A stretch of DNA of 64,000 nucleotides from a virus (IMGVR_UViG_3300031576_000028:1-64000); one strand, 5' to 3'. Positions 29,065 through 61,570 are shown, counted from the first letter of the stretch. Notes: generated by a model from the sequence alone, not told the origin. Made by a program: numbers and translations.

Positions 29065-29643
29065 CTACGCGCGGCGCCCCTGGATCAGGGAGAGCAGCTC
29101 CGCGCGGGAGCCGGGATCCTTCCGGAAGGCGCCCAGCATGCAGGAAGTCACGGTCGAGACGCCCTTCTTGTTGACGCCGCGGGTCGACATGCACTGGTGC
29201 TCGGCCTCGACCACGACCCCGACGGCGAGGGCCTCGAGGGACTCCTGGACCGCGTGGGCGATGTCGGAGGTCATCTTCTCCTGGATCTGCAGGCGCTTAG
29301 CGAAGGCGTCCACGACCCTGGCGAGCTTGGAGATCCCGACGACGCGCTTGTTCGGCAGGTAGCCCACGTGGACGACGCCGAGGATGGGGACGAGGTGGTG
29401 CTCGCAGTAGCTCTCGAACTGGATGTCCGTCAGCAGGACGATCTCGTCATAGCCGCTGACGTCCTCGAACGTCTTCGAGAGGATCTTTTTGGGGTCCTGT
29501 TCGTACCCGCGGAAGAACTCCTCGTAGGCCTTCACGACCCTGGATGGAGTATCGACCAGACCCTCGCGAGCCGGGTCGTCGCCGGCCCACGCGAGCAGCG
29601 TGCGCACGGCTGCCTCGGCCTCTAGCCTGGTCGGACGGGTCAC
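29065..29643 (-). CDS. folE: GTP cyclohydrolase I (FolE)
   Basis: 192 residues from GTG 29643. Full-length for the family. Zinc/catalytic residues are present: C80 and H82-H83 in [20 protein letters not shown], and C151 in HQCMSTRGV, plus [23 protein letters not shown]. Converts GTP to 7,8-dihydroneopterin triphosphate. In phages this is the first step of 7-deazaguanine synthesis, continued here by QueD and QueE 27 kb away. Unusual location: within the head genes, so expected to be expressed late with them. Confidence 0.95.
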
Positions 29644-48660: not shown

Positions 48661-49257
48661 TCAGAATACTAGCTCCAGCAGCGACATCGAACAGCCGCGG
48701 ATCAGCAGCGACACAGCGCCGCCGAGCCTGCCCTGGAGCACGAACTCGCACTCGCTCGGCGACGGCGGCTGGTTGGTGCTGAACTGGAGCAACACCCACG
48801 CGCCAGCCGAATCGGCGACCGGCTTGACGGCGGAGATGGCGCGTTCGGCACCGCCGAGCGCGCGCTCGACCACCCTCAACTCCGCTCCGGCGCCGACGCA
48901 GAGGACGGAGGCGTTGATGCGGCCGAACAGGCCAGCCGCGTTGACGGAGAAGAAGCCGGCGTTGGTGACGACGACGCCGAGGTCGGCCCAGTCGAGGCCG
49001 GCGACGATCTTCTCCCCAGGTATCAGCGTCGTGCTGACGTGGAACTTCACCGTCGGGGGCGAGCCCGCCGGAGGTGCAAACTGGCCGCCAGCGTACGACC
49101 AACCTGGACCAGGCGTGGGCTGAAGGTCGGTGACGTCGACGGCGACCTCGAACTGCGCGAAGTACCCTGGGGACTGTTCTTGGAACGTCCCCAGGTCGTC
49201 GACCACGATAACGTCGACGACCTTGCCGACGGAGATCATGGCGACGGTGCGCGTCAC
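48661..49257 (-). CDS. Virion structural protein downstream of a collagen-like fibre
   Basis: 198 residues from GTG 49257 (GTGA overlap with the fibre gene). Contains PTPGPGWSYAGGQFAPPAGSPP, a segment shared with fibre assembly/tail accessory proteins (the W-x-Y-x-G-G-x-F-x-P-P pattern), then a beta-rich body. Probably binds or caps the 49254 fibre. Confidence 0.5.
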   Translation of the reverse strand: MTRTVAMISVGKVVDVIVVDDLGTFQEQSPGYFAQFEVAVDVTDLQPTPGPGWSYAGGQFAPPAGSPPTVKFHVSTTLIPGEKIVAGLDWADLGVVVTNAGFFSVNAAGLFGRINASVLCVGAGAELRVVERALGGAERAISAVKPVADSAGAWVLLQFSTNQPPSPSECEFVLQGRLGGAVSLLIRGCSMSLLELVF

Positions 49258-50846
49258 GCAGGCTCCATGACATAGAAGATCACGAGCTGGCCGCCGCTGC
49301 CCGCACCACCAACCGCCCCGTTTCCGCCGGCCCCGCCGGTGACGCTGCCAGCGCCACCACCACCGCCACCGCTCGCGCCCGATCCGCCGCGACCGTTGGT
49401 TCCCGCGCCGCCGGCCACGCCAGGACTGCCGACTCCACCAGTGCCGATCGCCCCGGCCCCGCCGTTCGCACCGTTGACCGGCGTCCCGCCTGACGCCGCC
49501 GCCCCCTGGAACACCGCGACCTCGTCGCCGAGACCACCAGCACCCGATGCCCCGGATGCGCCGCCACCTCCGCGTGCGCCACCCTCACCGGCACCGCCGG
49601 TTCCTCCAGCGCCGCCCGCGATGACGGTCGCGGTCGGCGACGCCGTGTAAAAGACCGCGACCTGCGCAGCCGAGATACCACCATTGCCGCCGGCCGTGCC
49701 CGTGACACCACCACCAGCGCCGCTCGTCCCGCTCCCTTGGCTGATGCTCGACTCGGCGCCATAGCGAGCGGCGAACGAACCACCAGCCGCTCCAGCGGCA
49801 CCGCCGGCCGATCCCGTACCTGCGCCGCCCCTACCCGGGGCCGGGGCGCCCGCACCGGCCCCGCCGATGCCGGACGCGCCGGTCCACCACGCGGCGAGCG
49901 TCGTGCCGCCATCGAGGAACTTGGTAGCCCCTCCGTTGGCTCCCACGCCGCCGGCCGTGCCCGCGACCAATGCGGCACCGCCAACGCCAGCGGTACCGCC
50001 AGCGCCACCGGCTCCGATCGTGACGGTGTACGTCGTCATCGGGGTGACCGATACCTGGAGCCGGAACGAGTTGGCGCCGCCACCTCCAGAGCCACTCCGG
50101 CCGCCGCCGCCACCGCCGTCGGATGGTCCGCCAGATCCGCCGCCGCCGCCACCAGAGCCCGCGCCGCCACCGGCTCCCGGTCGACCGATTAGGGTCACCT
50201 TGGTCACGCCCGGCGGGCATACCCACGAACTGGACGCAGCGAACACCTCGGCGACCACGCGAGCGCGCGGGCTCAGCGGTCCGAGCCAGTGCAGCTCGGG
50301 GATGTCAGGCGACGGGGTGACCATGAACAAGGCCGGGCCGTCGACGCCGCGTACTCCGTCGGCGCCAGGCGGACCAGGCGGACCGGGTTGACCTTCGTCT
50401 CCCTCTTCCCCCTGAGCGCCGACGAGGCCCTGCGGTCCCTGTTGACCAACCGGTCCGGTGACACCAGCACGGAGGCTACCGTCAGCGTTGTAGTAGTGCC
50501 ACCCGTCCGCGTCGAGCACCGCGTGGCCGTTTGCGACGATGGAGATCGATCCGGTCAGTTGATTTCCGGGCGCTGTTCCACCGCGGTAGATGACCACGCC
50601 GGAGACGTCGACTCCGGTCGCGTTGGCGAGGTGCAGCGACTTGACCAGCGCCCTGAGCGGGCTCGCCGGCGCCGCATAGATCACCCCGGCGACCGCGGCG
50701 AGCTGACCCTGCGCGAGCACCTTGTAGTCTGGCGGGAGCGCGGCGTTCGCCGGGGTGTGGACCTCGCAGCCGAACAGCGTGAACGTGATCGCCGCCGGCG
50801 TGCCGGCGACGCCGGCCAGGGTGTCTAGGCTACCGAGCGTGAGCAT
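49254..50846 (-). CDS. Collagen-like and glycine-rich tail fibre protein
   Basis: 530 residues, ATG 50846. N-terminal ~125 residues are a beta-sandwich (SGVVIYRGGTAPGNQLTGSISIVANGHAVLDADGWHYYN). Residues ~128-168 are G-x-Y collagen repeats (GPVGQQGPQGLVGAQGEEGDEG...). The C-terminus is dominated by Gly-rich runs with short aromatic insertions, as in the 10289 adhesin. Likely a trimeric receptor-binding fibre. Confidence 0.7.
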   Translation of the reverse strand: MLTLGSLDTLAGVAGTPAAITFTLFGCEVHTPANAALPPDYKVLAQGQLAAVAGVIYAAPASPLRALVKSLHLANATGVDVSGVVIYRGGTAPGNQLTGSISIVANGHAVLDADGWHYYNADGSLRAGVTGPVGQQGPQGLVGAQGEEGDEGQPGPPGPPGADGVRGVDGPALFMVTPSPDIPELHWLGPLSPRARVVAEVFAASSSWVCPPGVTKVTLIGRPGAGGGAGSGGGGGGSGGPSDGGGGGGRSGSGGGGANSFRLQVSVTPMTTYTVTIGAGGAGGTAGVGGAALVAGTAGGVGANGGATKFLDGGTTLAAWWTGASGIGGAGAGAPAPGRGGAGTGSAGGAAGAAGGSFAARYGAESSISQGSGTSGAGGGVTGTAGGNGGISAAQVAVFYTASPTATVIAGGAGGTGGAGEGGARGGGGASGASGAGGLGDEVAVFQGAAASGGTPVNGANGGAGAIGTGGVGSPGVAGGAGTNGRGGSGASGGGGGGAGSVTGGAGGNGAVGGAGSGGQLVIFYVMEPA

Positions 50847-50849
50847 TGG

Positions 50850-51458
50850 TCACCCGCACATGAAGAAGAGGAAGGCCTCGTCGCCGCCGCCCGTGCCCTT
50901 GTCGCCGTCGCGACCGGGGCCGCCGCCCCGGGTCGGGTACGGGCGGTCGAAGACGTACTTCTTGAGCTCGCGGTCGTGGGCGGCGAGCGTGCGGCGGACG
51001 TCGTCGACGCCATCCGCCGCCGGGCCCTGTGGTCCCCGCCCTCCGATGGGGCCCTGCGGTCCCGCCTGGCCGATCATGCCGCGGGGGCCGGTGGGGCCGA
51101 CCCGACCCTCAGGACCCTCCTGCCCCTCCTCGCCCCGGGGGCCCTGCTCGCCGTCGCGGCCCGGCGTCCCGCGGTCGCCCTTCTCCCCTCGGTCGCCCTT
51201 CTCGCCCGGCGCCCCGCTGGGACCCAGCTCGCCGCGCGCGCCCTGAGGTCCGCGCTCGCCGCGCTCGCCTCGGTCGCCGTCATCCCCGTCCTTGCCGGGC
51301 GGCCCCTCGACGACCATGACCCGTCCCGGCGGCCCGGCCGGGCCGGGCGCGCCCCTGGGCCCGGAGGCGGGCGGCGCGGCGGCGCGCCTCAGCCCGTCGA
51401 GCTCGCGCTTGATCCGCGAGAGCTGGTGCTCGAGGTCGTCGACGCGGGCGTCACTCAC
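50850..51458 (-). CDS. Collagen-like fibre protein
   Basis: 202 residues from GTG 51458. Coiled-coil N-terminus (VDDLEHQLSRIKRELDGLRRA), a long collagen-type block (G-P/E/D-R-G-E... residues ~33-150), and a C-terminal DDVRRTLAAHDRELKKYVFDRPYP helix. Paired with the adjacent collagen-like fibre. The G-x-Y tract probably makes it prone to length change. Confidence 0.65.
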   Translation of the reverse strand: MSDARVDDLEHQLSRIKRELDGLRRAAAPPASGPRGAPGPAGPPGRVMVVEGPPGKDGDDGDRGERGERGPQGARGELGPSGAPGEKGDRGEKGDRGTPGRDGEQGPRGEEGQEGPEGRVGPTGPRGMIGQAGPQGPIGGRGPQGPAADGVDDVRRTLAAHDRELKKYVFDRPYPTRGGGPGRDGDKGTGGGDEAFLFFMCG

Positions 51459-55705: not shown

Positions 55706-56352
55706 CCTACAAGACCCCTCCCCAGACGGCCTCGTTCTCAGCCGACTACGTCGTCGAGTGGAGCGTCGAGAACGACCCGGACAGGTACAAGAGGCTGTCG
55801 ACGGTCGGCGTCCCGACGCGCGACGAGGTCACCTACGACCGGCGCGGCAAGAAGAGGACGGAGAAGATCCCGACGCACGCGGTCGTCCTCGTCGCGCTGG
55901 AGGTCCCGCTCCCCGAGCTCGAGAAGGTGACCAGCCAGCTGAAGGCGAGCCGCCTCGTGAGGCCGATGGCGCCGGTGCTCCAGTTGATGATCGAGTCGGC
56001 GAGCGGGGCCACGGAGTGGCGCGACAGGTGCGCGAAGCTGGAGAAGGAGGTCCGTGACCTCCAGCTGCTCGCCGTCTCCAAGGCCTGCATGATCGACGCG
56101 CACGAGGTCGGCATCGCCAGGGCGTGCGACCTGACCGACGACGAACACCTGTGGAGCCGGTGCGGGGTGTCGGTGTCGAACCCCGGAGCGAAGCTGCTCG
56201 GCATCAGAAACCAGGAGGAGACCAAGAAGGAGATCAACCTGATCACCGTCGGGTCGTGCAACTACATTAAGCAGGTGAGGACGGCGCTGGACGAGAAGCG
56301 GGCCGACGTCGCCGCGCGCCTGCTGGCGGCCCTGCCCGAGGGCGACTTCTAG
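55702..56352 (+). CDS. Hypothetical protein
   Basis: 216 residues, GTG 55702. FSADYVVEWSVENDPDRYKRLSTVGVPTRDEVTYDRRGKKRTEK, then PLPELEKVTSQLKASRLVRPMAPVLQLMIESASG, a helical middle and EINLITVGSCNYIKQVRTALDEK. Ends convergently with QueE, the two stops interlocked. Function not recognised. Confidence 0.5.
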   Translation: MTYKTPPQTASFSADYVVEWSVENDPDRYKRLSTVGVPTRDEVTYDRRGKKRTEKIPTHAVVLVALEVPLPELEKVTSQLKASRLVRPMAPVLQLMIESASGATEWRDRCAKLEKEVRDLQLLAVSKACMIDAHEVGIARACDLTDDEHLWSRCGVSVSNPGAKLLGIRNQEETKKEINLITVGSCNYIKQVRTALDEKRADVAARLLAALPEGDF

Positions 56353-57113
56353 CGGACCCCGATGTACTTGTGCTGCTGGAGCGACAGGCGCCAGCGCGGG
56401 TTCCGCCTGACGAAGTCGACGCACAGGTTGACGTTGGCCGAGTAGATCTGACCAGCGACGCCGGAGCCAAGCGAGTGGTTCTTGATCGACCTGCCGTGCG
56501 TCAGCGCGGTGAGCTCGACGGTGGTCGGGTCGGTCACGTCCTGCGGCTGGACGAACAGATGCCCCCAGTCGCCCTGGTCGGCGAGGCCGAGAAGCTCCCC
56601 GTCCGACCACTGGTGCTCGGGCGGGGCGGCCGGGACGCCTCCCGGGAGGACGACCTTCAACTCCTCAGCCCGCCACACCACGAGCGTCGAGCCGCGCTTG
56701 GGGGAGACGCAGACGTGGTCGATGATGTCGAGCGCCTCGCACTGGTTGGTCCCGTTGGTCTCGATCGAGGTGAACCACCCCTCGTGCTTCAGCGCCTTCG
56801 CCAGCGCGAGGTCCAGCTGGAGCGTCGGCTCGCCGCCGGAGATCACGACCATGCGGCCGAGGTCTCCGGCCCCGCCCTGCTGCCAGTTGGCCTCGAGGCG
56901 CGTGAGGACCTCGGCCAGATCCTGCGAGTCGCCTTTGGCGAAGTTCGTGTCGCACCACATGGCGCAGGCCCCAGAGCCCTTGGCTCGGTCCTCTGGGCGC
57001 CCGTTCCACTGATTGCACCCCGACAGGCGCAGGAAGACGCAGGCGCGCCCGGCCAAGAGGCCCTCGCCCTGCAGCGTCGGGAAGATCTCGACCACTCCGT
57101 ACTTGCTAGACAT
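56349..57113 (-). CDS. queE: 7-carboxy-7-deazaguanine synthase (QueE)
   Basis: 254 residues, ATG 57113. Radical SAM enzyme making 7-carboxy-7-deazaguanine (CDG) from carboxy-tetrahydropterin. Seen: IFPTLQGEGLLAGRACVFLRLSGCNQWNGRPEDRA, GACAMWCDTNF, and SAM-binding SGGEPTLQL (residues 92-100). Cluster Cys are C33, C50 and C54, i.e. C-x16-C-x3-C, where E. coli-type QueE has C-x14-C-x2-C; this is atypical but the surrounding W-N-G-R-x-x-D-R-A is conserved. Overlaps the HNH gene. Final enzyme before DpdA in this pathway if QueC is absent. Confidence 0.85.
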   Translation of the reverse strand: MSSKYGVVEIFPTLQGEGLLAGRACVFLRLSGCNQWNGRPEDRAKGSGACAMWCDTNFAKGDSQDLAEVLTRLEANWQQGGAGDLGRMVVISGGEPTLQLDLALAKALKHEGWFTSIETNGTNQCEALDIIDHVCVSPKRGSTLVVWRAEELKVVLPGGVPAAPPEHQWSDGELLGLADQGDWGHLFVQPQDVTDPTTVELTALTHGRSIKNHSLGSGVAGQIYSANVNLCVDFVRRNPRWRLSLQQHKYIGVR

Positions 57114-57606
57114 CGCGCCAGGTCCTTCCGTAGATCGCCGAGGCCATCGAGGTCTGGGAGACCCCGTACTTCTCGGCGAGGGTCTTGATCGACCAGCCGA
57201 GGGCCTTGAGGTTGTAGAGCATGCGGGCCTCGCGCACGGTCTCAATAGTTAGCTTGGACGCGTGGTGCCGCTCACCCCTGACGGGGTTGCTCCTCCGGCG
57301 GCCGCGGGCGTCCATGTCCGCGGTGTTCTCCTTGTGAGTGCCGATCACGAGGTGCCGCGGGTTCACGCAGGCGGGGACGTCGCACGTGTGGCGCACGACG
57401 AAGCCGCGCTGCCGGATGCCGGCGTGGGCGAGCTCCCAGGCGAAGCAGTGGGCGCCGACGAGCACGCCGCCGCCGCGGTTGAAGATCCCGTAGGTCGGCT
57501 CGCCGTCCTCGGTGGCGAGCGCCCCTGTCCAGATCCAGCACCCCGAGGGGTCCCTGCGGACGTGGCGCCAGAAGCGCCTCGCCGGGTCCTCAGCGCGCCG
57601 GGCCAA
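57106..57606 (-). CDS. HNH endonuclease inserted in the que cluster
   Basis: 166 residues from TTG 57606. HNH_3-type: GCWIWTGALATEDGEPTYGIFNRG, AHCFAWELAHAG, VRHTCDVPACVNPRHLVIGTHKENTADMDARGRR, plus a C-terminal HTH (LAEKYGVSQTSMASAIYGRTW). Typical homing endonuclease, overlapping queE at one end and lying three bases from queD at the other. Confidence 0.9.
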   Translation of the reverse strand: MARRAEDPARRFWRHVRRDPSGCWIWTGALATEDGEPTYGIFNRGGGVLVGAHCFAWELAHAGIRQRGFVVRHTCDVPACVNPRHLVIGTHKENTADMDARGRRRSNPVRGERHHASKLTIETVREARMLYNLKALGWSIKTLAEKYGVSQTSMASAIYGRTWRDV

Positions 57607-57609
57607 GCC

Positions 57610-58023
57610 TCACCGAGCCTTCGCCCTGCAGTTCAGCGTCTCCCACAGGACCACCTCCACGACCGTGATCCCGTAGTCGGACATCAGGTCGCGAGCCTTC
57701 GCGAGGAAGCGCATGGCGATGTTCTCGGCCGTGGGCGGCGCGGGGAGGGCCTCGCACTTCTGCCCGTCGCGGAGCAAGAAGGTGCCGAGCGGGTCGCCCT
57801 CCTGATAGAGGAAGCCGTGGTCCCAGTGCGCGTCGAGCCAGCCGCCGAGGACCTGCTTGACGACCGAGAAGTCGATCACGCGGCCGAGGTGATCGAGATC
57901 GACCGCCGAGCACTCGACCTCAAAGACGTAGCGGTGGCCGTGCGCGTTCCGGCATTTGCCCTCGTGACCCATCAGCCTGTGGCCGGCGTCGATCTCGAGG
58001 CGCTGGACGATGTTCGCGCTCAC
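57610..58023 (-). CDS. queD: 6-carboxy-5,6,7,8-tetrahydropterin synthase (QueD)
   Basis: 137 residues from GTG 58023. T-fold enzyme converting dihydroneopterin triphosphate to 6-carboxytetrahydropterin. Zinc ligands H15, H28 and H30 in AGHRLMGHEGKCRNAHGHRY, catalytic Cys24, Asp-His near residue 68-69, and PTAENIA with E100. All key residues present, family-size length. Coupled by GTGA to the ParB-like gene. Confidence 0.93.
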   Translation of the reverse strand: MSANIVQRLEIDAGHRLMGHEGKCRNAHGHRYVFEVECSAVDLDHLGRVIDFSVVKQVLGGWLDAHWDHGFLYQEGDPLGTFLLRDGQKCEALPAPPTAENIAMRFLAKARDLMSDYGITVVEVVLWETLNCRAKAR

Positions 58024-58811
58024 GACTGCACAGCCTTCTTGGCGCGCCTGGGGGCCGGCGCCGGGACCGCCGCGGCCTTGGCCGCCACCTGCGCGTCGAC
58101 CTGAGCCGCCGTCGCCTGGAGTCGCTCGACCCAGTCCCGGAGGACGGTCTCGGGGTTGCTGCTCCCCACCGCGGCCGCGCTGCGGTTGAACTCGGTCATC
58201 AGCTCGTCGTGGAGCCTGACGGGGATCGACCCCTTCGAGGTGCCGAGCTGGAAGCGGCGCTCGCCGCCGATGTTAGCGGGCTCCTGCGGGCGGGCCGGCG
58301 TGTCGGGGAGCGTCGCCTCGACCGCGCCCCAGTCGAACTGGGTGGTCGACTTGACGAGGCTGTCGAGCTCGACGGCGGTCATCGGCAGCTCCTTGGCGAG
58401 GTCCTCGATCGAGGTCGAGTCGCTGAGGTCCTTGATGAGGGCCGCGAGGAGGACGGGCTCCGGGGCGCCGCGCAGCTCGTTGGCGATGATCGTCAGCTTC
58501 TTGGCCTTGGCGTCGTCCATGACGCCGAGGTTGATGGCGGGCACCTCCGTCATGCCCTCGGCGGTCGCCGCCTTCCACCTGTGCTCCCCGTCGATGATCT
58601 CGTAGAGGTAGAGGTTGCTAGGGTCGTTCACGATCACCCGAACCTTGATGGGCTCCACGAACCCGTAGGTGCGGATCGAGAGGCGCTCCTTCTCGAACAT
58701 CGCCTCGGACATTTTATTGGGGTTCCATGGATTTTTTCTGCATCGGCTGAGATCGACCATCTCGGCCTTGAGACCCTTGCCCCAGCTCAGCGTCTGCTTC
58801 TTCTCGCTCAT
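58020..58811 (-). CDS. ParB-like nuclease-domain protein (DNA-modification cluster)
   Basis: 263 residues, ATG 58811. ParB N-terminal fold: CRKNPWNPNKMSEAMFEKERLSIRTYGFVEPIKVRVIV, then YEIIDGEHRWKAATAEGMTEVPAINL. Helical middle and an Ala/Pro/Lys-rich C-terminus (AAAVPAPAPRRAKKAVQS). ParB-like proteins are repeatedly found beside dpdA in phages and may help select or access DNA sites. No ParA partner seen. Confidence 0.8.
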   Translation of the reverse strand: MSEKKQTLSWGKGLKAEMVDLSRCRKNPWNPNKMSEAMFEKERLSIRTYGFVEPIKVRVIVNDPSNLYLYEIIDGEHRWKAATAEGMTEVPAINLGVMDDAKAKKLTIIANELRGAPEPVLLAALIKDLSDSTSIEDLAKELPMTAVELDSLVKSTTQFDWGAVEATLPDTPARPQEPANIGGERRFQLGTSKGSIPVRLHDELMTEFNRSAAAVGSSNPETVLRDWVERLQATAAQVDAQVAAKAAAVPAPAPRRAKKAVQS

Positions 58812-59737
58812 CTTGGCATCCTCGGGTTGGCTATCGCGGCGTCCCAGTCTACACCGCGGGCGCGCCAGATGTCAGTCACGTGCCTCTCGGCCTCGATCCA
58901 GGCCCTGGCAGAGGCTACCAGGCAGTCAACGCGCAGGCGGGACGTGGTCCCATTGCGAGGCATGATCCCGTACCACGACGGGCGCAGCATGGACTCACCG
59001 AGGCCCTCGCCCTGGTGGCGGATGTTCACGACGCCGCCCGCGCGGGTACTCATGACGTAGCTGCCCTGGGAGGTCGGCGTGATCCACGAGCTCGAGTCCA
59101 CGGAGTAGAACGGCCACTTCTGGATCGCCTCCTGCGAGGTCATCCGGAACGCGTGCACGCGCACGCCTCGGGCGTAGGCCTCCTTGAGGAAGCGGGTATA
59201 GTCGAGCGGGTCGCGGTTGAGCTGGTTGCCCTCGATCGCCACGTAGTTGGAGCGCCCGGGCCTGCGGCACTCCTCCAGCAGCTCGATCCAGTACGCCCAG
59301 TCCTGGTCGCTGTGCCAGACGTTGACGAGGCCGGCGCCGAGGCCGGCCCCGATGATCTTGTCGCGCTGCCTGTGCACCCAGTCGTAGGACGCCATCATCG
59401 CGATGTCGAGTTCGATCCACAGGTCGGCGAGGCCGGCCGTGCGGAGCCACCTGAGCCACTCGATGTAGCGCGCGAGGAACGCGTCGTAGTCGACGTCCTC
59501 GGCGTTGGCGCTGCCCGACGTCGACACGAGGTCGCTGACGCTCGTGCGCAGCGTGAAGGCCCCCGAGTCGATCAGCCTCAGGCCGGCCTGACGCAGGCAC
59601 TGGAGCCACACGTCGCGGTAAGTCTTGCGGAGGTACCCCGCGTAGAAGAAGGACGTGAGGACGTGCTGGGCCCCGGCGTGGACCGCGGCACTCGCGTGCT
59701 CCCGAGAAGACTCGATGGCTGCGAGGAAGATCTTCAT
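58808..59737 (-). CDS. dpdA: DpdA-family DNA guanine transglycosylase
   Basis: 309 residues, ATG 59737 (ATGA). TGT-superfamily TIM-barrel with LRLIDSGAFTLRT (D57, proposed nucleophile-type Asp), LWIELDIAMM (D111), HAFRMTSQEAIQKWPFYSVDSSSW (D214). Exchanges guanine for a 7-deazaguanine base in DNA; the D-S-G-A-F motif and short length fit phage DpdA rather than tRNA enzymes. Which subfamily (DpdA1-DpdA4) is not decided here. Coupled to the ParB-like gene. Confidence 0.85.
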   Translation of the reverse strand: MKIFLAAIESSREHASAAVHAGAQHVLTSFFYAGYLRKTYRDVWLQCLRQAGLRLIDSGAFTLRTSVSDLVSTSGSANAEDVDYDAFLARYIEWLRWLRTAGLADLWIELDIAMMASYDWVHRQRDKIIGAGLGAGLVNVWHSDQDWAYWIELLEECRRPGRSNYVAIEGNQLNRDPLDYTRFLKEAYARGVRVHAFRMTSQEAIQKWPFYSVDSSSWITPTSQGSYVMSTRAGGVVNIRHQGEGLGESMLRPSWYGIMPRNGTTSRLRVDCLVASARAWIEAERHVTDIWRARGVDWDAAIANPRMPR

Positions 59738-60210
59738 CGGCCGCGGTCCATCTTGTAGTCGGGCGGAGTCGATCGTACGCCGTCGCGGACAGCCCAGGTG
59801 ACCAGCGAGTACGGCACACCAACCGTGACCTGGTCGTTGGCGCGCAGCTTCTCCATCCACGGAGCGCGCATGTTGGCTCGCACCATCAAGGTGGCTCGCC
59901 AGAGGATCGGCCACGTGAGGCGGTCATCGACGTCGTCCTCGTTGACCGCGATCGTCAGGTGCCCCTTGGTGCGCGGAAGGACGTGCTGCTGGACCCAGGC
60001 CCAGTCGGTGAAGTTCTCAGTTAGGAACACGTGTCGGACGCGACTCGTGGACAGGCGCCGCTGCAGCTCCGCGAGGTCGCCTGGGTCCTGCGGCACCGAG
60101 TCGATGAACGCGGTCGGCACTCGGTGCCGGGCCAGCGCGCCCTCGACCTCTAGGCCGTACCAGATCGCCGTTCGACCGACGCCGACGTCCGGACCAGCTG
60201 GGTGGGTCAC
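59734..60210 (-). CDS. Unknown protein between dpdA and glycosyltransferase
   Basis: 158 residues from GTG 60210 (GTGA at both ends). RTAIWYGLEVEGALARHRVPTAFIDSVPQDPGDLAELQRRLSTSRVRHVFLTENFTDWAWVQQHVLPRTKGHLTIAV..., Rossmann-like alternation of helices and strands with several conserved-looking Trp. No family recognised. Position suggests a role in base synthesis, transfer or tailoring. Confidence 0.55.
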   Translation of the reverse strand: MTHPAGPDVGVGRTAIWYGLEVEGALARHRVPTAFIDSVPQDPGDLAELQRRLSTSRVRHVFLTENFTDWAWVQQHVLPRTKGHLTIAVNEDDVDDRLTWPILWRATLMVRANMRAPWMEKLRANDQVTVGVPYSLVTWAVRDGVRSTPPDYKMDRGR

Positions 60211-61208
60211 TGGACTCCCAGCAGGCGGGCGATCCTGGGGATGGCGTAGTGCCCGGGCGCCGGGTCGAGGTGGTAGGGCTCCGACGCGTCTAGCGCGCGC
60301 CTGATCAGGAACGCCGCGCCCGCGATGGAGGAGTACTGGTGCTCGCGCTCGTAGAGCTCGAGGTACGAGAGGCGGGCGGGGACGACCGGGCGGCACCCGA
60401 GCGAGGCAGCCTCGAGCATCGCGATCCCCCAGGTCTCCTGCCGCGCCGACGAGAAGGCCACGCGGCTGTCGCCGAGGAGCGCGTAGTACTCCTGCTTGGT
60501 CTGGAAGCAGTCCTTGGTGCGCAGCCACTCGACCTGGTCGTCGGGGTAGGCGTCGGCGTAGGCCGACATCACATCCGCGAACTCCCACGGCGCCTTCTCC
60601 GGCGCGAGCCTGTGCGGGAACACGACCCGCCGCGGCCGGTCGTGCCAGGGCCTCGAGTACGACGACCACTCCTCGTCGAGGAGCGGGAAGCCCGTCACGT
60701 GGATCTTCGCTCGCGAGCAGCCGGCCCCCACAAGCATATCGCAGTGTAATTCCGTCGCCACGGCCACAACGTCGTAGATCTCGAACAGGGCCCTCTCGAA
60801 GCTCGGCGCCCAGCGACGCACTAGATCGGAGCGCCCCAGGAGGTCGTGCGGGTCGTAGGAGCCGGCATGGAAGAGGCCCGCGATCTTGAACGACACGCCA
60901 CCGAGGTCGCGCATGTACGCGAGCTGGACAGCGGCCGGACTCCACGCGTCGAGGCAGAGGACCCAGTCGCCGTCGCGGACTGAGCCTCCCCTCAGCTGGT
61001 GGCAGAACGCCGACAGCTGCGTCGACTTCCACAGGTTGGTGTCGACGACGTCGAGGAACTCGCCCTGGGTGATCTTCTCCTCCGCGTGGACACCAACCAC
61101 GGTCACGTACTCCGCGCCAAGCCTGGCGAGGGTGTCCGGGAACCAGCGCATCCACTGAGCGCTGTACCTTTCTTCCAATGGCTCGATAGGCATGATCCAG
61201 ATGGTCAT
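60207..61208 (-). CDS. Glycosyltransferase, GT4/GT-B-like
   Basis: 333 residues, ATG 61208. GT-B-type: N-terminal Rossmann region, then KIHVTGFPLLDEEW, RRVVFPHRLAPEKAPWEFADVMSAYADAYPDDQVEWLR, and VAFSSARQETWGIAMLEAASLGCRPVVPARLSYLELY (the E-x7-E-type nucleotide-sugar site). Transfers a sugar from NDP-sugar to an acceptor. Coupled on both sides with the 7-deazaguanine cluster, so modified DNA base is a candidate acceptor (inference). Confidence 0.7.
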   Translation of the reverse strand: MTIWIMPIEPLEERYSAQWMRWFPDTLARLGAEYVTVVGVHAEEKITQGEFLDVVDTNLWKSTQLSAFCHQLRGGSVRDGDWVLCLDAWSPAAVQLAYMRDLGGVSFKIAGLFHAGSYDPHDLLGRSDLVRRWAPSFERALFEIYDVVAVATELHCDMLVGAGCSRAKIHVTGFPLLDEEWSSYSRPWHDRPRRVVFPHRLAPEKAPWEFADVMSAYADAYPDDQVEWLRTKDCFQTKQEYYALLGDSRVAFSSARQETWGIAMLEAASLGCRPVVPARLSYLELYEREHQYSSIAGAAFLIRRALDASEPYHLDPAPGHYAIPRIARLLGVQ

Positions 61209-61570
61209 CGGCTAGTCTCCGCCAGCTCCACCCGCGACCCGTTCTCGCCGTCCTCCCAGGCCTCGACCCAGGACACGACGTAGCCCTGGGAGCCTAGGTG
61301 GGAGGCGAGCTCTCTGGCGATCATCTCGCAACTGCGGGAACCGAAGTCGTGGCCGTCGTCACGGAACGATCTTCTAACGTCGTTCTGTAGGGTATGGAAC
61401 TCGACCTCGCGGTTGGAGTGGCTGACCACCACCGACGCGATGATCAGGAACATGTGTCGGTGCCGGTGCGAGAGGTACGAGACCTCTGGTGGCGCGCCGG
61501 GCCAGTAGTGGAACCCCGGCACTCTGTGGGTGACCATCACGGTAGTCTTCTCGGTCCTGATCTCGTTCAT
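61205..61570 (-). CDS. QueD-like T-fold protein
   Basis: 121 residues, ATG 61570 with CGGAG. VPGFHYWPGAPPEVSYLSHRHRHMFLIIASVVVSHSNREVEF keeps the His positions of QueD (F-H ... H-R-H) but has no Cys in between. FGSRSCEMIARELASHLGSQ and VEAWEDGENGSRVE correspond to QueD's PTAEN and final Glu regions. Likely a T-fold paralogue with changed or lost activity. Neighbours glycosyltransferase and SbcC-like genes. Confidence 0.55.
   Translation of the reverse strand: MNEIRTEKTTVMVTHRVPGFHYWPGAPPEVSYLSHRHRHMFLIIASVVVSHSNREVEFHTLQNDVRRSFRDDGHDFGSRSCEMIARELASHLGSQGYVVSWVEAWEDGENGSRVELAETSR

Follow-up and report, generated by a model that had tools for sequence, protein, structure and literature searches.

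The gene cluster analysed here is, in our reading, a dpd-type island for 7-deazaguanine modification of DNA joined to a tailoring module that would glycosylate a 7-deazaguanine made without QueC, and we give this reading a probability of roughly 0.58. That the cassette belongs to the dpd pathway is nearly certain. The window, i.e. the whole stretch of DNA that was analysed, comprises bases 1-64000 of the 78,895-base record of an uncultivated virus with a GC content of 68%. Six minus-strand genes chained by 4-base overlaps occupy 57610-61570, namely those for a T-fold protein (QueD/PTPS fold, 121 aa, 61205-61570, ATG start; phrog_17812, E 9e-20), a glycosyltransferase (333 aa, 60207-61208), an unknown 158-aa protein (U158, 59734-60210, GTG start), a DpdA-type DNA guanine transglycosylase (309 aa, 58808-59737; phrog_887, E 1.4e-21), a ParB-like protein (58020-58811; ParB_N, E 8e-12) and a QueD (CPH4 synthase) with canonical motifs (57610-58023; PF01242, E 5e-27). 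The overlaps are ATGA at 61205-61208 (T-fold/glycosyltransferase), GTGA at 60207-60210 (glycosyltransferase/U158) and ATGA at 59734-59737 (U158/dpdA). Third-position GC is 0.84-0.94 in all members of the chain, as expected of real genes in a 68% GC genome, which supports all of them as coding. The first-pass annotation had placed the first three genes here, overlapping each other or dpdA by 4 bases, and this arrangement was confirmed on the minus strand; the dpdA start was corrected to 59737 (ATG), and folE was added to the pathway.

Downstream of queD, also on the minus strand, lies queE (56349-57113), encoding a radical SAM CDG synthase with a CX14CX2C-type motif (phrog_2076, E 1e-23), and an HNH homing-type endonuclease gene (57106-57606) sits between the two. 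The folE gene, encoding a 192-aa GTP cyclohydrolase I (29065-29643, minus strand; PF01227, E 9.5e-75), is 27 kb from the cluster. At 49254-51458 the window contains two neighbouring glycine-rich/collagen-like proteins with GXY repeats (530 and 202 aa), perhaps virion fibres. The window DpdA resembles those of Seuratvirus, Bipper and phiFN37, and carries DSGA and VDSSS as putative catalytic Asp motifs. The ParB-like gene adjoins dpdA also in viral locus L043 and in Fusobacterium phage phiFN37, and its product may be a partner of DpdA.

FolE, QueD and QueE are thus all encoded in the record. QueC makes preQ0 and is a core step in most dpd phages, although bases derived from 7-carboxy-7-deazaguanine (CDG) do not need it. 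No PF06508 match denoting QueC was found in the 78.9-kb record, which is possibly incomplete. When 25 phage records with the T-fold gene were inspected, FolE was present in every one and true QueD in 21, and QueC was not convincingly found in any of them, one partial match exceeding the cut-off. The dpdA phages CAjan, MiCath and yong3 have QueC by annotation and lack the T-fold gene, and Bipper has neither in the stretch read. Judging from these gene contents, the T-fold gene seems to mark pathways that hand no CDG to a phage QueC, although a host QueC could still supply preQ0.

The T-fold protein had been described in the first-pass annotation as a paralogue without the catalytic Cys, and structure prediction bore this out. 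Its AlphaFold model (38 sequences, pLDDT 91) has the QueD fold, the best PDB match being E. coli QueD (4ntk, TM 0.73), followed by other PTPS proteins; we used structure for the assignment because the link to QueD is weak by sequence (hhalign probability 30% between profiles). Like QueD/PTPS (4ntk), it keeps a zinc-type His triad (H21/H37/H39) and a Glu anchor (E106), but there is no Cys between the first and second zinc His of the window protein, where the QueD catalytic Cys is missing, and the conserved Asp-His pair of QueD is absent from the family in a 49-sequence alignment. Instead, C81 lies within a new SCE motif and is invariant across the 49 relatives together with R54, E57, S80, E82 and E106, while H21, H37 and H39 are invariant or nearly so. 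A TTG codon 14 codons upstream of the ATG has no evident ribosome-binding site. In Chryseobacterium phage MA9V-3 (L096:9461-10342) a single protein combines the T-fold domain with an N-terminal domain that resembles endonuclease VII/HNH; because the source protein is such a fusion, the profile derived from it (MA9_49) drifted onto the T-fold domain, and we treated it as the same family. We considered the T-fold protein as a substitute or spare for QueD and rejected the idea, since true QueD is present in 21 of the 25 records; together with the lack of a convincing QueC, this indicates that the pathway ends at CDG.

The glycosyltransferase was modelled from 25 sequences as a GT-B fold (pLDDT 84.8), its fold matches being MshA (Z 25.7; 311 residues, rmsd 3.2), sucrose-phosphate synthase (Z 25.4), BshA (Z 24) and a tetrahydrobiopterin (BH4) glucosyltransferase (Z 22). 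On this model, the enzyme is of the retaining GT4 type with an intact EX7E motif (E258/E266) and donor-phosphate residues R200 and K205. Among 138 relatives E266, R200 and K205 are essentially invariant, and E258 is replaced by Asp in 10, all of one subclade. Two loci (L004:7001-8344 and L022:5354-6718) encode a second, diverged glycosyltransferase-like protein beside DpdA, and the main glycosyltransferase there has the change of the first Glu to Asp. A Pfam scan of the window glycosyltransferase at E up to 1 gave a weak Glycos_transf_1 match and none to the QTMAN N-terminal family, nor was QTMAN among the fold matches listed, an absence that does not speak against a QTMAN-like enzyme. GT4 folds are common to enzymes of very different acceptors, including the pterin glucosyltransferase. 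The match to BH4 glucosyltransferases (Z 22), which is about as good as to many GT4 enzymes, a FolE that makes pterins and a PTPS-like T-fold protein could together suggest that the enzyme acts ahead of DpdA, with the free base, a nucleoside or a pterin intermediate as its acceptor, or that it makes a soluble glycosylated pterin, rather than modifying DNA. We consider this improbable, because the Z score is equal to those of many unrelated GT4 enzymes, and because QueE and DpdA, needless for a soluble pterin, travel with the glycosyltransferase.

Gene neighbourhoods support a shared pathway. In a tblastn search of 50,697 phage records, the glycosyltransferase was detected in 20 and the T-fold gene in 26, the latter in all of the glycosyltransferase phages except four PhiXhv-like ones. 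In PAC2 (PA5oct group), Acidovorax phage ACP17, Sinorhizobium phage Phosso, Synechococcus phage BUCT-ZZ01 and X1 both genes lie among folE, queD or queE, with phosphoribosyltransferase and DpdA-like genes in most of the five; ACP17, Phosso and BUCT-ZZ01 are cultured phages. Scans of viral contigs with the single sequences of the glycosyltransferase and U158 gave no matches because the patterns were too strict; a glycosyltransferase profile found at least 575 relatives. Around the best 80 of these we found the T-fold gene in 77, DpdA in 73, folE in 64, the phosphoribosyltransferase in 61 and queE in 51, a list that leans to T-fold loci because the profile was seeded mostly from such loci. Where at least 5 kb was available on both sides (39 of the best 80), the T-fold gene and dpdA were present in all 39, folE in 37, queE in 36 and the phosphoribosyltransferase in 35. 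In L043 (7129-8001) the phosphoribosyltransferase seems, on reading the sequence, to form the N-terminal part of a fusion with FolE; this enzyme may salvage the guanine released by DpdA back to GTP for FolE. Clustering of the glycosyltransferases at 50% identity gave 10 groups, and in nine of them at least one member is a neighbour of both dpdA and the T-fold gene. Since the linkage to dpdA recurs in dozens of unrelated phages, it is not due to chance.

The glycosyltransferase occurs with two very different DpdA subfamilies, a large type and the type of the window, the latter seen in the window, L043 and L023. The gene order of L043 is almost exactly that of the window, with queD, queE, a phosphoribosyltransferase-folE fusion, the T-fold gene, the glycosyltransferase, a window-type dpdA and the ParB-like gene. 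T-fold relatives in viral contigs (80 loci) fell into two contexts, one with a DpdA type of 260-290 aa and no glycosyltransferase, the other with the glycosyltransferase and another DpdA. When both scans were pooled, 109 loci had the glycosyltransferase and the T-fold gene and 51 had the T-fold gene only; the small DpdA was found in none of the former but in 43 of the latter, and the order dpdA-U175-T-fold-glycosyltransferase, U175 being a 175-aa family found beside the glycosyltransferase in other loci, was kept in 87. A HIT-domain hydrolase (L151:10573-10950 and relatives) was seen in 44 of the 109 glycosyltransferase loci versus 0 of the 51. Because the T-fold gene without the glycosyltransferase sits with a different DpdA, sugar transfer seems to follow the T-fold step. 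The T-fold gene itself, which had been grouped with the glycosylation genes, is probably not one of them, since about one third of its relatives (51 of 160 loci) are in dpdA phages without any glycosyltransferase; it is more likely that the protein makes the base.

The T-fold protein probably acts on CDG. Cui et al. (2023) reportedly predicted a CDG decarboxylase, DpdL, and are said to have found 7-deaza-dG and 7-carboxy-7-deaza-dG in phages; the DpdL pathway described there is not known to include a glycosyltransferase. Both Cellulophaga phage phiST, which has no glycosyltransferase, and ACP17 carry the T-fold gene, and the two are reportedly phages of that study. The T-fold protein may plausibly be DpdL, and hence perhaps not new; in the window, as in the DpdL/2'-deoxy-7-deazaguanine pathway, synthesis gets only as far as CDG, and another enzyme must then act on it. 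If the T-fold protein is DpdL, the DNA base could be plain 7-deazaguanine and the glycosyltransferase a co-transcribed gene that modifies, for example, a protein or the host surface. The T-fold gene in phiST and ACP17, the lack of a convincing QueC in the 25 T-fold phages, the many T-fold phages that have no glycosyltransferase, and the sugar-nucleotide genes near some marine loci all fit this explanation. However, a surface bystander gene would turn up away from dpdA, whereas the glycosyltransferase is hardly ever seen outside the company of dpdA and the T-fold gene, an association that spans many phages and two DpdA types, so we regard this explanation as unlikely.

The neighbourhoods also speak to a capsule or LPS role, which the first-pass annotation had named as what would count against its proposal and which we reject. 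Among the best 80 of at least 575 viral loci, dpdA accompanied the glycosyltransferase in all 39 that were well flanked, and the dpdA rather than capsule context was found as well in 9 of the 10 glycosyltransferase clusters and in 18 of the 20 convincing loci from bacterial genomes. A sugar-gene context without dpdA was seen only in Xanthomonas phage PhiXhv-12 and its kin, which stand at the distant end of the relatives (26% identity). The functional coupling of the three genes to dpdA, outside the known core pathway, is therefore supported by gene linkage.

Searches of Pfam, PHROGs, NCBIfam, PADLOC and the phage records gave no match for U158. In Xanthomonas phage X1, however, the gene that immediately precedes the glycosyltransferase encodes a protein that aligns with U158 over 140 aa (BLASTP 8e-6). 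Among the window proteins U158 is also the best match to the profile of U175, with 7.1 bits versus 3.3 for the best of 2000 shuffles, over about 50 residues and weaker than the link to X1. From these comparisons U158 is a probable remote member of the U175 family. We rejected the possibility that U158 is a spurious ORF on the basis of codon GC, the 4-base overlaps and the X1 homologue. U175 was present in 92 of the 109 loci with the glycosyltransferase and the T-fold gene, and in 3 of the 51 T-fold loci without the glycosyltransferase, all three on contigs cut off immediately beyond that gene. This co-occurrence suggests that the glycosyltransferase and U175/U158 add a step beyond what the T-fold-only phages carry out.

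The cassette is also found in cells. The glycosyltransferase profile gave 21 loci in 84,980 bacterial and archaeal genomes; leaving aside one weak match (L202), DpdA was present in 18 of 20 and the T-fold gene in 15 of 20. The carriers are Magnetospirillum (several species), Devosia, Aurantimonas, Methylobacterium and Azospirillum, with cultured strains among those of the first three genera, and some other loci are phage contigs in metagenome bins. Magnetospirillum aberrantis SpK, Devosia naphthalenivorans CM5-1 and Aurantimonas sp. VKM B-3413 each have the glycosyltransferase and DpdA. Bacterial contigs hold the cassette together with QueD or a queuosine-precursor-transporter-like gene, which in Devosia overlaps the glycosyltransferase (weak Vut_1 and TIGR00697 matches). 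In Devosia, Aurantimonas and Magnetospirillum (L187, L189 and L191) dpdA and the glycosyltransferase have integrase or resolvase genes in their vicinity. Reading of protein starts and a few Pfam scans revealed no phage structural gene up to 17 kb away, and these copies are possibly a host modification island.

We propose the following order of events. FolE, QueD and QueE would produce CDG, which the T-fold protein, having lost QueD chemistry but kept the zinc- and base-binding residues, would turn into the base for insertion; the most plausible reaction is loss of the carboxylate, which would yield 7-deazaguanine. DpdA would then swap guanine in DNA for this base, and the GT4-type glycosyltransferase, aided by U158, would move a sugar from a host nucleotide-sugar onto the inserted base; that insertion precedes glycosylation in DNA is the most likely order. 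A nucleotide-sugar epimerase gene is present in 14 of the 25 T-fold records but was not found in the window record, so the sugar donor must come from the host, which implies a common host nucleotide-sugar. The glycosylated deazaguanine could shield the DNA from nucleases. Several points count against the scheme. If the base is plain 7-deazaguanine, its C7 bears neither a hydroxyl nor an amino side chain, leaving only C7 itself or the exocyclic amine as acceptor. The others are the lack of an epimerase gene in the record, the Asp in the EX7E motif of one subclade, the wide range of acceptors among GT4 folds, the weak sequence match between T-fold and QueD profiles, the lean of the best-80 list to T-fold loci and the possible supply of preQ0 by a host QueC. 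If the carboxy form were the base, an acyl-sugar ester would be possible. It is a long shot that decarboxylation is followed by C-glycosylation, with the sugar bonded carbon to carbon at the electron-rich C7 of the 7-deazaguanine in DNA, as an unrecognised modification system of hundreds of aquatic phages and of bacterial chromosomes.

The proposed island uses parts known from other systems. It has the FolE, QueD, QueE and 9g/CAjan-type DpdA transglycosylase of phage dpd modification (Hutinet et al. 2019, PMC6884629), but QueC was not found in the record, and the T-fold relative of QueD, the GT4-type glycosyltransferase and U158 are extra. As with the T4 alpha- and beta-glucosyltransferases acting on hydroxymethylcytosine (PMC13216743), a phage glycosyltransferase would target a modified DNA base, although the base is different and the fold matches of the window enzyme are GT4 enzymes, MshA and BshA among them. 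The tRNA-queuosine glycosyltransferases manQ/galQ (PMC12518689) likewise place a sugar on a 7-deazaguanine nucleoside in nucleic acid, but they do so in animal tRNA and on a cyclopentene hydroxyl, an acceptor that no window gene would make. It is very improbable that DpdA, the T-fold protein and the glycosyltransferase modify tRNA in the manner of TGT and the queuosine mannosyltransferase: PHROGs does name the DpdA family queuine tRNA-ribosyltransferase, the large DpdA type weakly matches archaeal TgtA, and glycosylated queuosine is known in animal tRNA (PMC12518689), yet DpdA proteins of the 9g and CAjan type, to which that of the window is related, modify phage DNA (PMC6884629), and the Pfam scan at E up to 1 gave no hit to the QTMAN N-terminal family.

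Phages that carry deazaguanine in their DNA are already known, and so are phages whose DNA is glycosylated. We found no glycosylated deazaguanine in DNA in the literature searched, whose coverage excludes Cui 2023 and de Crecy-Lagard 2024. A comparative study noted a deazaguanine system in PA5oct and is not known to discuss the transferase (PMC7824862). Only the records of PAC2, Phosso, PhiXhv and the like, few in number, give the transferase a generic name; in the records read, neither the T-fold gene nor U175 has one. The inheritance of the glycosyltransferase, the dead-QueD-like protein and the small protein as a set with DpdA suggests that many phages and some bacteria make an undescribed sugar-decorated guanine in their DNA.

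If this is true, a sugar-bearing deazaguanine would be an additional natural DNA base, uniting guanine replacement and DNA glycosylation, two counter-defences so far known apart. The cassette is common, with at least 575 viral relatives that are mostly unannotated, and its presence in cultured alphaproteobacteria makes the chemistry measurable in named strains. It would also provide candidate genes for a question of the dpd field, namely what follows CDG in phages that lack QueC.
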